Shown in pieces: positions 18,189-23,174 of a stretch of DNA of 53,162 nucleotides. Position numbers and translations under genes: made by a program. The notes under the pieces were generated by a model. The model was not told where the DNA came from. It did no database searches and was given only the letters and a program-made list of their open reading frames with translations. Within the stretch, counting starts at the first letter, position 1, and every line of letters starts with the position of its first letter. Source of the DNA: Bacteroidetes bacterium HGW-Bacteroidetes-10 (lineage in GTDB: Bacteria > Bacteroidota > Bacteroidia > Bacteroidales > UBA932); NCBI GenBank assembly GCA_002842695.1, contig PHDT01000024.1, forward strand, positions 1 to 53,162, written 5' to 3'.

Positions 18189-19253
<1,065 letters not shown>

Positions 19254-19328: not shown

Positions 19329-19361
19329 CAAATTGTTATTAACATCAATGCATTGCAGATT

Positions 19362-20150
19362 ATGGAGAACAGAAGGAACGGAAGAAAAATACTGATAACC
19401 AACGACGACGGTGTAAAATCAAAAGGAATATCTGCACTGACAGAGATGATGAGACCATACGGAGATATAACAGTTGTAGCACCATTCGAAGCAATGTCCG
19501 GAATGTCAGCCGCTCTTACGATTGGAAAACCATTAAGACTTACCGAACTTAAAACAGAAGAGGGATTGAGAATTTTCGCCTGTTCAGGAACTCCTGCAGA
19601 TTGCGTAAAAATGGCTATGAATCAGCTTTTTGCCGACAGCCCCCCGGATTTGCTGGTATCAGGTATTAACCATGGCTCAAATGCATCTATTGCCTCCCTC
19701 TATTCGGGAACACTCGGAGCCGCAGCTGAAGGTACAGTATATGGAATTCCATCAATCGGTTTCTCATTAACCTCTCACGACAGAAATGCCGACTTTACCG
19801 CTGCCGTTCACTTTGGTAAGCTGATAATTGATAAGTTTCTGGAGAATCCGCCAAAGGCCGATACATATCTTAATGTAAATTTTCCCGCTTCTGACATGAC
19901 TGAAATTAAGGGAATCCGGTTTTGCCATCAGGGGCGCGGACAGTGGATCAAGGAGTTTGAAGAGCGTGTAGACCCTTATGGTTTTAACTACTACTGGATG
20001 ACAGGTGAGTTTTTTAACCTTGAGCCTGCAAATGATGACTCAGACCATAATCTTGTTGAGAAAAACTATATTAGTATTGTTCCGCACAAGATTGACACCA
20101 CAGATTACGACGAACTCAGCCGTCTCGGAAAAATGTGGAAATTCAGCTGA
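19362..20150 (+). CDS. surE: 5'/3'-nucleotidase SurE
   Basis: Metal-dependent phosphatase acting on nucleoside 5'- and 3'-monophosphates, linked to stationary-phase survival. From the ATG at 19362 it has 262 residues. The metal-binding aspartates are D15/D16 in ITNDDGV, with further active-site motifs AMSGMSAALT and SGINHGSN, and SLYSGTLGAAAEG characteristic of the family. A TTG three codons upstream is less likely as start. It opens a seven-gene operon with gaps of 28 bases or less and heads lpxB-ogt, as surE-lpxB order is known in other Bacteroidota. Confidence 0.95.
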   Translation: MENRRNGRKILITNDDGVKSKGISALTEMMRPYGDITVVAPFEAMSGMSAALTIGKPLRLTELKTEEGLRIFACSGTPADCVKMAMNQLFADSPPDLLVSGINHGSNASIASLYSGTLGAAAEGTVYGIPSIGFSLTSHDRNADFTAAVHFGKLIIDKFLENPPKADTYLNVNFPASDMTEIKGIRFCHQGRGQWIKEFEERVDPYGFNYYWMTGEFFNLEPANDDSDHNLVEKNYISIVPHKIDTTDYDELSRLGKMWKFS

Positions 20151-20178: not shown

Positions 20179-21810
20179 ATGCGTTATTACATCATAGCCG
20201 GAGAGGCTTCAGGAGACCTTCACGGTTCCAACCTGATGAAAAGTCTCAGAAGTGCCGACAGCGAGGCAGAGTTCCGCTTCTGGGGAGGAGACCTCATGAA
20301 GGAGAGCGGCGGAGAGATGGTCAGACACTACAAGGAGACAGCAGTAATGGGGCTCATGGAGGTAATTGCCAAACTCTCCTCAATTACTGAAAACCTGAGA
20401 CTATGCAAGGAAGATATTGTTTCATGGAAACCAGATATTATAATTCTTATAGATTACCCCGGTTTCAATCTCAGAATTGCAAAATTTGCAAAAGAGAGAG
20501 GATTCAGGGTATACTATTATATTGCGCCTAAAGTTTGGGCACGGGGCGAAGGGAGAATTGAGAAAATCAGAAAATATACAGACAGACTTTATATTATATT
20601 CCCCTTTGAAGAGAATTATTTTAAAAGTCGTTCTGTTAATGCTCTATATTTTGGTAACCCGCTTTTAGACAGTATTGCCGGCCACCCGGCCATGAACGAA
20701 ACAAAAGAGGATTTTCTGCAGAGAAACTCTCTGGATGACAGACCTTGCATTGCACTTCTTGCAGGAAGCAGAAAACATGAAATTAAGTACCTTATTCCCA
20801 GATTCAGATTACTTGAAAACGATTTTCAGGAGTACAACCTTTTACTGGCTGCTGCCCCTTCCGTTGAAAAGGAATTTTACGACAAATTACTGGAGGGCAG
20901 TCGCATCAGATTGCTCACAGGAGAGACATACAGCATACTCAGACATTCATCTGCAGCAGCTATATCATCCGGCACAGCCAGCCTGGAAGCAGCCATAATA
21001 GGGACTCCGCAGGTTGTTTGCTACGGAATGAACCCTATCACAGCGGCTCTTGCCAGAATTGTAATTAAGGTTAAATATGTAAGTCTTGTTAATCTCATTC
21101 TGGATATGCCTCTAGTAAGAGAGCTGCTCCAGGGTGACTGCACTCCCGAAAATATATCGTCTGAGCTTCGAAGCATAATCAAAGGAAGGGAGAGGACAAG
21201 AATAACAAGCGGCTACAGGAGGCTTCGCAAGATTCTTGGCGGAGAGGGGGCTTCAGAGAAAGTTGCTAAATCTATGGTAAAGGAGTTTAATGTTATAAAC
21301 CACTCAAATATTTACTCCGTAGTACACGAAACTCCAATTGGAACACTCAAAATTATTTGTGACGACAATAACCTCATTCAGATAAATTACATGGAAGATT
21401 ATGCTGAGTCTGGCAGGGAAAAGGGTTCACACCACCCGATTCTTAAAGAGACCGTAAAGCAACTGGATGAATATTTTTCAGAAAAAAGAAAAACTTTTGA
21501 GCTTCCTGTAAAACTGGGAGGAACAGATTTTCAGAATAAAGTCTGGGAGGAATTAATCAAGATTCCTTACGGTCAGGTTAAAACATACGGAGAGATTGCA
21601 GGAATAGTTGAAACAAAAGATGCAAGCCGGGCAGTTGGGATGGCTTGCAAAATGAATCCTCTGCTCATTGTTGTTCCATGCCACAGAGTTATGGGAGCCA
21701 ATAATAAACTTACCGGATTTGCAATAGGCATTGACAAAAAGAGCTATCTCCTTGACTTGGAGAAGACATATCAGAACACAGAGAATAACTTGTTTAAACA
21801 AAATTTATAA
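20179..21810 (+). CDS. lpxB: fusion: lipid-A-disaccharide synthase + methylated-DNA-protein cysteine methyltransferase
   Basis: One reading frame of 543 residues joins two enzymes. Residues 1 to about 370 are LpxB (GT19), which condenses UDP-diacylglucosamine with lipid X on the inner face of the inner membrane: AGEASGDLHGSNLM, YYYIAPKVWA, YFGNPLLD and SSGTASLEAA are visible and the length is that of a whole LpxB. Residues about 378-535 are a complete Ogt/MGMT, which removes O6-alkyl groups from guanine: IGTLKII at the N-terminal subdomain, IPYGQVKTYGEIA, the arginine helix SRAVGMA, and acceptor C501 in VVPCHRVMG. The linker is about eight residues. No stop codon or internal in-frame start with spacing typical of a separate gene is seen. 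The domains have no known functional link. Confidence 0.93.
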   Translation: MRYYIIAGEASGDLHGSNLMKSLRSADSEAEFRFWGGDLMKESGGEMVRHYKETAVMGLMEVIAKLSSITENLRLCKEDIVSWKPDIIILIDYPGFNLRIAKFAKERGFRVYYYIAPKVWARGEGRIEKIRKYTDRLYIIFPFEENYFKSRSVNALYFGNPLLDSIAGHPAMNETKEDFLQRNSLDDRPCIALLAGSRKHEIKYLIPRFRLLENDFQEYNLLLAAAPSVEKEFYDKLLEGSRIRLLTGETYSILRHSSAAAISSGTASLEAAIIGTPQVVCYGMNPITAALARIVIKVKYVSLVNLILDMPLVRELLQGDCTPENISSELRSIIKGRERTRITSGYRRLRKILGGEGASEKVAKSMVKEFNVINHSNIYSVVHETPIGTLKIICDDNNLIQINYMEDYAESGREKGSHHPILKETVKQLDEYFSEKRKTFELPVKLGGTDFQNKVWEELIKIPYGQVKTYGEIAGIVETKDASRAVGMACKMNPLLIVVPCHRVMGANNKLTGFAIGIDKKSYLLDLEKTYQNTENNLFKQNL

Positions 21811-21818
21811 ACCTTAAA

Positions 21819-22682
21819 ATGAGGATAACAGCATATAAGTACCAGGCTACAGGTAATGACTTCATCATACTTGACAACCGCGATGGGTCAGTTACACTCA
21901 CAGAAGACCAGATAAAGTACCTGTGTCACAGAAGATTTGGCATTGGAGCAGATGGGCTGATGTTGCTTAACAAAAGCAAAAAGCACAGCTTCTCAATGAT
22001 TTATTATAATGCCGACGGAAAAGAGGGAAGCATGTGCGGGAACGGAGGCAGATCTCTTGTAACATTTGCAGCACACAAGGGAATAAAAAAGTTCGATTTT
22101 GAAGCAATGGACGGTCTCCACTATGCAGAACTGGTAAGTTACACATCATCTGCATGCGTAGTTAAACTGGGCATGACTGATGTAAATGAAGTAAAGGAGT
22201 ACTCGCCAAAAAGCTACCAGTTAAATACCGGATCTCCACATCTTGTAATTTTTGTAGAGAATGTAAAGGATTATGATGTACTTGAGCAGGGAAAGCTCTG
22301 GCGTTACCACCCTCATTTTCCTGAAGGAACAAATGTAAATTTTGTTCAGGGCAGCTGGGGCAGGTTTAATATTCCAAAATTTGAAGAGGGACAGGATCAA
22401 AAGATTACAGTAAGAACTTATGAAAGAGGGGTTGAAGATGAAACATACTCGTGCGGCACCGGAGTAACGGCCTCTGCTATTGCTCTTCACAAATTGCTTA
22501 CAAGAAATAAATTTTCTTACAGCAAGGTTGATATAAAGATACCTCAGACAGTAAGAAATATAATCGAAACCAAAGGCGGGGAGCTTGAGGTTGAGTTTAC
22601 ATACACCGGTGAAGACAATTACCGAGATATTAAACTCACTGGGCCGGCTACATATGTATTCAGCTGTGTAATAGATTGCTAA
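21819..22682 (+). CDS. dapF: diaminopimelate epimerase
   Basis: PLP-independent racemase converting LL- to meso-diaminopimelate for lysine and peptidoglycan. The product has 287 residues. The two catalytic cysteines are C73 in SMCGNGGRS and C212 in YSCGTGVTAS; KYQATGNDFIILDN at the N-terminus is the family signature. It starts eight bases after the lpxB-ogt fusion and 12 bases before coaD. The last residues (VFSCVIDC) differ from the usual GPA-xxVF end only by a short tail. The assignment is certain. Confidence 0.97.
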   Translation: MRITAYKYQATGNDFIILDNRDGSVTLTEDQIKYLCHRRFGIGADGLMLLNKSKKHSFSMIYYNADGKEGSMCGNGGRSLVTFAAHKGIKKFDFEAMDGLHYAELVSYTSSACVVKLGMTDVNEVKEYSPKSYQLNTGSPHLVIFVENVKDYDVLEQGKLWRYHPHFPEGTNVNFVQGSWGRFNIPKFEEGQDQKITVRTYERGVEDETYSCGTGVTASAIALHKLLTRNKFSYSKVDIKIPQTVRNIIETKGGELEVEFTYTGEDNYRDIKLTGPATYVFSCVIDC

Positions 22683-22694
22683 TATGCAAACATT

Positions 22695-23174
22695 ATGAAA
22701 AAAGCAGTTTTTCCGGGATCTTTCGATCCCTTTACAAGGGGTCACCTGGATGTTCTTCAGTCTTCACTGAGGGTATTCGACAAAGTGGTGGTTGCTGTTG
22801 GATACAATGTCAGTAAATCTGGGCTCTTTAGCATAGAAGAGAGGCTCTCAATAATAGGAGATTCAATTGCCGGACTTAAGAATGTCGAGATTGAATCCTA
22901 CACAGGTTTAACAATAGATTTCTGCAACAAAACAGGGGCAGAATTTATTGTCAGGGGTATTCGCTCTACTACCGATTTTGATTTTGAGCAGGTAATTTCC
23001 CAGGCTAACGCTAAAATGTCGCCAAACATACAGACAGTATTTATACCATCAAGTGCAGAGTGTTCCTTCATAACATCAACTGTTGTGAGGGATGTATTGT
23101 TGAACGGAGGGGATGCACAGTTATTTCTTGCAAAAGGAGTGGATGTTGCCTCCCGGTTAAAAAGAAGAGGTTAA
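22695..23174 (+). CDS. coaD: phosphopantetheine adenylyltransferase
   Basis: Penultimate step of coenzyme A synthesis: 4'-phosphopantetheine plus ATP gives dephospho-CoA. The product has 159 residues, typical. The nucleotidyltransferase motif is FPGSFDPFTRGHLDV with TRGH at 14-17, and the ISSTxVR-like loop reads FITSTVVRDVL. VRGIRSTTDFDFE matches the family. It is the fourth gene of the surE operon and is followed after two bases by the thioredoxin gene. Confidence 0.97.
   Translation: MKKAVFPGSFDPFTRGHLDVLQSSLRVFDKVVVAVGYNVSKSGLFSIEERLSIIGDSIAGLKNVEIESYTGLTIDFCNKTGAEFIVRGIRSTTDFDFEQVISQANAKMSPNIQTVFIPSSAECSFITSTVVRDVLLNGGDAQLFLAKGVDVASRLKRRG

Follow-up and report, generated by a model that had tools for sequence, protein, structure and literature searches.

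A conserved in-frame LpxB–Ogt fusion in three genera of a Bacteroidales family

One gene in the window (the whole stretch of DNA analysed, 53,162 nucleotides) encodes a full-length LpxB followed in the same frame by a complete Ogt. Its intact occurrence across many species indicates, at the level of sequence, that the fusion is real and inherited. The reading we prefer, to which we give a probability of about 0.6, is that of an inherited bifunctional protein in which both halves would be active and which would be joined mainly for expression. The gene and its parts are as follows.

20179–21810, plus strand: lpxB-ogt fusion gene, 543 aa, 61.6 kDa (computed mass), assigned with Pfam and NCBIfam
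20179–21273, plus strand: LpxB part, residues 1–365 (PF02684 at residues 4–356, alignment to PDB 5w8n)
21274–21321, plus strand: end of the last LpxB helix and linker, residues 366–381 (AlphaFold2 model)
21322–21768, plus strand: Ogt part with both domains, residues 382–530 (PF02870 at 382–446, PF01035 at 450–529)
21769–21807, plus strand: C-terminal tail, residues 531–543, with L538-F539 conserved

The frame is free of stops from the ATG at 20179 to the TAA at 21808–21810. The N-terminal half was matched by the Pfam model for LpxB (PF02684, E 2.4e-83) and by NCBIfam lpxB (TIGR00215, 238 bits against a cut-off of 190, model span 5–365), and phmmer aligned residues 5–353 to the LpxB chain 5w8n, in agreement with the full-length LpxB described in an earlier note on this DNA. 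The complete Ogt proposed in the same note was likewise found, with Methyltransf_1N (PF02870, E 1.6e-10) and DNA_binding_1 (PF01035, E 2.4e-29) both present, NCBIfam ogt (TIGR00589) at 100 bits against a cut-off of 46, residues 384–539 aligning to Ogt chains including 4wxc and 4bhb, and C501 placed in PCHR as claimed. The Zn-binding and HTH domains of Ada had no Pfam match in the protein at E 0.001. Since the last LpxB helix stops at residue 374 in the AlphaFold2 model and the first Ogt strand begins at 379, the linker would be about 4–8 residues long (about eight had been proposed). The LpxB half of the model is mostly of high confidence. Confidence is low over the Ogt half, where pLDDT averaged over 10 residues is 31–73 and five rows give coverage, and this half is too weak for placing the domains.

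The genome is a draft of 42 contigs, which would leave room for an assembly error, a missed stop or a frameshift at the junction, but the relatives reduce the probability of such an artefact to practically nil. The full fusion, in one frame and with unchanged domain order, is present in 21 of the 24 genomes of the same genus (g1) at 52–86% identity, including the single-contig genomes G009 and G010; the nearest named fused relative is the MAG HGW-Bacteroidetes-14 (86%), and the family belongs to the Bacteroidales. The three remaining congeners are G003 and G014 (82% and 76% complete), which gave no match, and G005, which has an LpxB without Ogt. Two further genera with the fusion, g45 and g12, were found among 398 sampled genomes of the family. 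In g45, 12 of the 13 sampled genomes are fused, 10 of them in one frame of 539–553 aa, while the fusion is cut by a contig end in G147 and has a frame break in G176; G167 (82% complete) gave no match. The only g12 genome sampled, G035, carries the join on one contig (residues 222–540) and the N-terminus on another. This amounts to 35 fused genomes, our own included, in three genera, with the fusion maintained down to about 45% identity between genera; the fused loci L031–L034, which have the same sequence as G020, G011, G021 and G024, were counted once. A stop between the domains, sought in the fused relatives, was seen in none. A TAA flagged inside G001 and G023, which had seemed a candidate inter-domain stop, proved to coincide with the match end; each of the two frames is 538 aa long. 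Because the same-frame order recurs in 21 of 24 congeners and in two other genera, the fusion is neither a chance event nor an assembly artefact, and the relatives rule out a missed stop. Outside the family sample, an order-wide search of 247 genomes yielded, among the matches listed, only this genome (G000) and G009 past residue 403, and in a search with the Ogt half across 296 genomes of the phylum the longest other frame was 403 aa, again among the matches listed.

Residue conservation was assessed over 37 aligned fused rows from the 35 genomes, G035 and G147 each contributing a separate row for its N-terminal piece. In the Ogt half, Y470, R484, N493, C501, H502 and E528 are identical in all 35 covered rows, and P500 and R503 are likewise invariant in every covered row; we take Y470, R484, N493, H502 and E528 to correspond to human Y114, R128, N137, H146 and E172. 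In the LpxB half, the alignment to 5w8n equates D92, R198 and N305 with D98, R201 and N316 of the E. coli enzyme. Counting the rows that cover each position, R198 is kept in 36 of 36 and N305 in 35 of 35. At D92, 34 of 35 rows have the aspartate and one an unread X, and two further rows have gaps. According to the available text of PMC5785501, R201A and N316A strongly reduce the activity of E. coli LpxB, D98 is the predicted base, and N316 has a structural role rather than a substrate contact.

The dN/dS values (NG86) are low throughout, which indicates that purifying selection acts on both halves. For close pairs in which synonymous change is unsaturated they range over 0.028–0.115 for LpxB, 0.063–0.172 for the N-terminal Ogt domain and 0–0.024 for the C-terminal one (0.039, 0.095 and 0.012 for L001 against L002). 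The pair L003–L007 is saturated, with pN/pS of 0.18, 0.35 and 0.09 for the same three segments, and L004–L005 show no synonymous change in Ogt. The linker evolves faster than LpxB in 5 of the 8 close pairs with data. A search of the own genome for a second LpxB or Ogt returned none, the fusion being the one match and its frame the one PF01035 match. The genome also has a match for LpxK, the next pathway step after LpxB; two TGA and one TAA are reported inside it (L205, G000:C19:49264-50256).

The fusion gene lies in a cluster with the following neighbours.

18189–19193, minus strand: gapA, glyceraldehyde-3-phosphate dehydrogenase, divergent neighbour (PF00044, PF02800)
19353–20150, plus strand: surE, upstream neighbour (PF01975), an ORF with a TTG start; order conserved
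21819–22682, plus strand: dapF, downstream neighbour (PF01678); order conserved in the genus
22695–23174, plus strand: coaD-like cytidylyltransferase (PF01467), the name coaD being an interpretation

The order gapA(-) surE lpxB-ogt dapF coaD was found in 23 g1 loci (20 genomes, and 3 second copies from another collection), and the remaining fused loci of the genus are cut by contig ends. We surveyed 141 lpxB loci, with flanks of at most 1.5–3 kb and some genomes present twice from two collections. Thirty-nine have an adjacent ogt, all of them fused; 3 are N-terminal pieces of fusions at contig ends; 99 are unfused. Within these flanks, none of the 99 unfused loci has ogt beside lpxB. In 27 of them dapF follows lpxB, 25 times as gapA(-) surE lpxB dapF and also in L023 and L049; in the other unfused loci dapF was not found within the flank. 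The earlier note had suggested that a lost stop joined neighbouring genes, for which the survey offers no intermediate. With 0 of 99 unfused loci having an adjacent ogt and 27 having dapF there, ogt had to arrive behind lpxB, and loss of the stop may have been the final step after that arrival.

The downstream gene differs in g45, where the fusion is followed by one and the same gene start in all ten loci read; in the one that was scanned with Pfam (L145) the gene is a DnaN.

L145:2-961, minus strand: dnaN, the sliding clamp gene, following the g45 fusion where g1 has dapF

These unlike downstream genes (dapF in g1, dnaN in g45) are a hint of two origins. In the AU tests, placing all fused proteins in one clade gave p 0.341 on Ogt and 0.344 on LpxB, the Ogt segments of the tested tree having been cut 128 residues before PCHR so that they may contain a few partner residues. 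The Ogt tree placed g1 and g12 on one side of a branch (100/100), a first, smaller Ogt tree had g12 nested inside g1, and on LpxB a tree joining g1 and g12 scored better than the free search; parsimony on LpxB needed 4 changes. Taken as sequence comparisons, these results are compatible with one origin or possibly with two (g1 with g12, and g45). In G005, dapF comes straight after lpxB (L023, on G005:C98), and the genome has another Ogt, unlike that of the fusions and unfused, on G005:C19. Branches of 98/93 and 100/94 would make this a secondary loss of the fused Ogt, but placing G005 outside is not rejected by the AU test (p 0.261).

It is also conceivable, though on the whole rather unlikely, that the fusion is a neutral accident: ogt would have landed after lpxB and the frames have been joined, the fusion lasting only because both halves are needed and a split would rarely be neutral. 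The fast linker, the 27 unfused loci with dapF right after lpxB, the dnaN downstream of the g45 fusion and the recurrence of unrelated Ogt fusions in the family (below) are in its favour, but its retention in 35 genomes speaks against it, as would a second, independent joining of this pair, which is possible. It overlaps with the preferred reading, so that the odds of the two are not exclusive.

According to the preferred reading of a bifunctional protein, the N-terminal half would make the lipid A disaccharide and the C-terminal half would be a suicide O6-alkylguanine-DNA alkyltransferase. Such an enzyme is consumed at one molecule per lesion, so tying it to a steadily made LpxB would help its supply: attached to an essential enzyme in the surE-lpxB-dapF cluster, Ogt would be kept as a constant pool at LpxB stoichiometry, and the two activities would need no mutual influence. 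That both halves are active and that the join serves expression is what we infer from conservation and gene context; conservation in three genera could fit a functional coupling just as well.

The ATG of M366 would allow Ogt to be produced by itself as well, or even predominantly so. An internal start there, or proteolysis in the linker, would release an Ogt of about 178 aa beside the full-length protein, which we regard as improbable. This ATG (at 21274) is present in all 22 fused genes of g1, some 13 residues ahead of where the first strand of Ogt begins, but M occurs at this position in 20 of 66 unfused LpxB as well (the regular expression used sometimes took the next residue), so it is not special to the fusions, and the g45 gene L150 has I there.

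Ogt has other partners in the same family. Scanning 159 family genomes with PF01035 gave frames of 378–435 aa in 10 of the 10 g6 genomes with a match, of 743–797 aa in 4 of 9 in g37 and of 386–387 aa in 2 of 11 in g4, so that the long frames are not general in the latter two genera. By Pfam, the partner is GNAT in each of the seven g6 proteins scanned (that of G202 and six from the ten genomes), UbiD in all four long frames of g37 and HhH-GPD in both long frames of g4.

L135, L137, L138, L212, L213, L219, L220: GNAT acetyltransferase–Ogt, seven g6 genomes (Pfam)
L136:1-1989, L206:77-2467, L207:328-2556, L208:92-2422: UbiD decarboxylase–full Ogt, four g37 genomes
L139:685-1845, L211:115-1272: HhH-GPD glycosylase–Ogt, two g4 genomes

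Genus g6 includes Candidatus Coprenecus, the LpxB of L043 being identical to that of G202. Ada-like arrangements also occur in the family (L194, L214, L215), and many other family genomes have Ogt frames of normal stand-alone length. A 702-aa frame in G097 (L209) was discarded as an Ogt fusion because Pfam finds no further domain in it and the first M comes at 326. Since Ogt is also found C-terminal to UbiD, GNAT and HhH-GPD, its partner is not always envelope-related, and these partners would favour shared expression, a general gain from attaching a consumable repair protein to another gene, or chance over a link between lipid A and repair; pairing HhH-GPD with Ogt makes sense for repair, however, and is no argument for mere sharing of expression.

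The same fusions weigh on the suggestion that the join acts at the membrane, either because the hydrophobic patch of LpxB holds Ogt at the inner membrane or because alkylation of Ogt alters the stability or activity of LpxB and thus the output of lipid A. We know of no link between lipid A synthesis and DNA alkyl repair. Part of the E. coli patch has hydrophobic counterparts in the fusions: all 34 rows covering V62 have V or I there, and M60, I63 and L66 are mostly hydrophobic. As E. coli LpxB is membrane-associated in the text available of PMC5785501, an Ogt at the membrane surface, the other proposal of the earlier note, is possible. The same source, as far as available, describes a C-terminally swapped dimer in which the last 87 residues of LpxB complete the fold of the partner, so that Ogt is appended at a critical segment; persistence of the fusion to about 45% identity between genera points the same way. 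Against this, the partners in the family's other Ogt fusions have no obvious envelope role, and LpxB occurs free of Ogt in the congener G005. A coupling of membrane or regulatory type is possible but unsupported, and we consider it improbable.

Two residues near the end of the fusion are also conserved: F539 is present in all 35 covered rows, and L538 in all but one of them, L027, which has I. A QxxLF ending (QLGLF, QQSLF etc.) was found in 11 of 48 other Bacteroidota Ogts, a set that includes some fusions with other proteins.

L155, L169, L170, L175, L178, L183, L186, L187, L195, L198, L202: Ogts ending in QxxLF (C-termini)

Such a tail resembles the beta-clamp-binding pentapeptide. The fusion has the tail ENNLF, which lacks the Q and retains the LF, and L538-F539 is possibly what is left of a QxxLF tail in degenerate form. 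Searches of the open-licence literature, with the available part of PMC7179400, gave no description of such a motif in a bacterial Ogt; human AGT co-precipitated with PCNA according to the accessible part of PMC10779285. A far-fetched scenario would bring several of these elements together: spent (alkylated) Ogt would destabilise or inhibit the LpxB dimer through its swapped C-terminus, lipid A would fall until fresh protein is made, the LF tail may reach the sliding clamp, and the pair was perhaps joined twice.

In the LpxB–Ogt protein, nature has stably joined two proteins, a suicide enzyme among them, that are not known to take part in a common process. It makes it possible to ask whether functional coupling is required for a fusion to last or whether sharing expression is enough, and the UbiD, GNAT and HhH-GPD fusions of the family form a comparative system for this question. 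If the coupling were true, DNA alkylation damage would be tied to the synthesis of the outer membrane. No report of an LpxB–Ogt fusion was found in the open-licence literature, which is weak evidence of absence, and the accessible portion of a 2023 review on alkyltransferases (PMC10779285) has no mention of "lipid".

Compared with known systems, the N-terminal half resembles LpxB (PF02684, TIGR00215; PDB 5w8n, 5w8s) in its full-length domain, the equivalents of D98, R201 and N316 and the partial hydrophobic patch; the E. coli enzyme is a stand-alone chain of 382 aa, whereas the fusion has a full Ogt after the last helix. The C-terminal half resembles Ogt/AdaB (PF02870 and PF01035; PDB 4bhb, 1sfe) in having both domains and all named active-site residues, and differs from it in being joined to a lipid A enzyme and in an LF tail without the clamp-type Q. 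Ada, in which Zn-binding and HTH domains are combined with Ogt (as in L194), is similar in that an alkyltransferase is chained to another protein. Other AGT fusions are the AGT-EndoV of Ferroplasma and the histone-like AGT-2 of C. elegans, which, in the part of PMC10779285 available, keep only the C-terminal AGT part, whereas LpxB–Ogt retains the N-terminal one too. The Ada, EndoV and histone-like partners act on DNA or chromatin, while LpxB makes lipid A. The GNAT-Ogt, UbiD-Ogt and HhH-GPD-Ogt proteins likewise have Ogt C-terminal and occur in the same bacterial family, but with different partners. The kinds of domain are already known, and what is new is the LpxB partner and its conservation.
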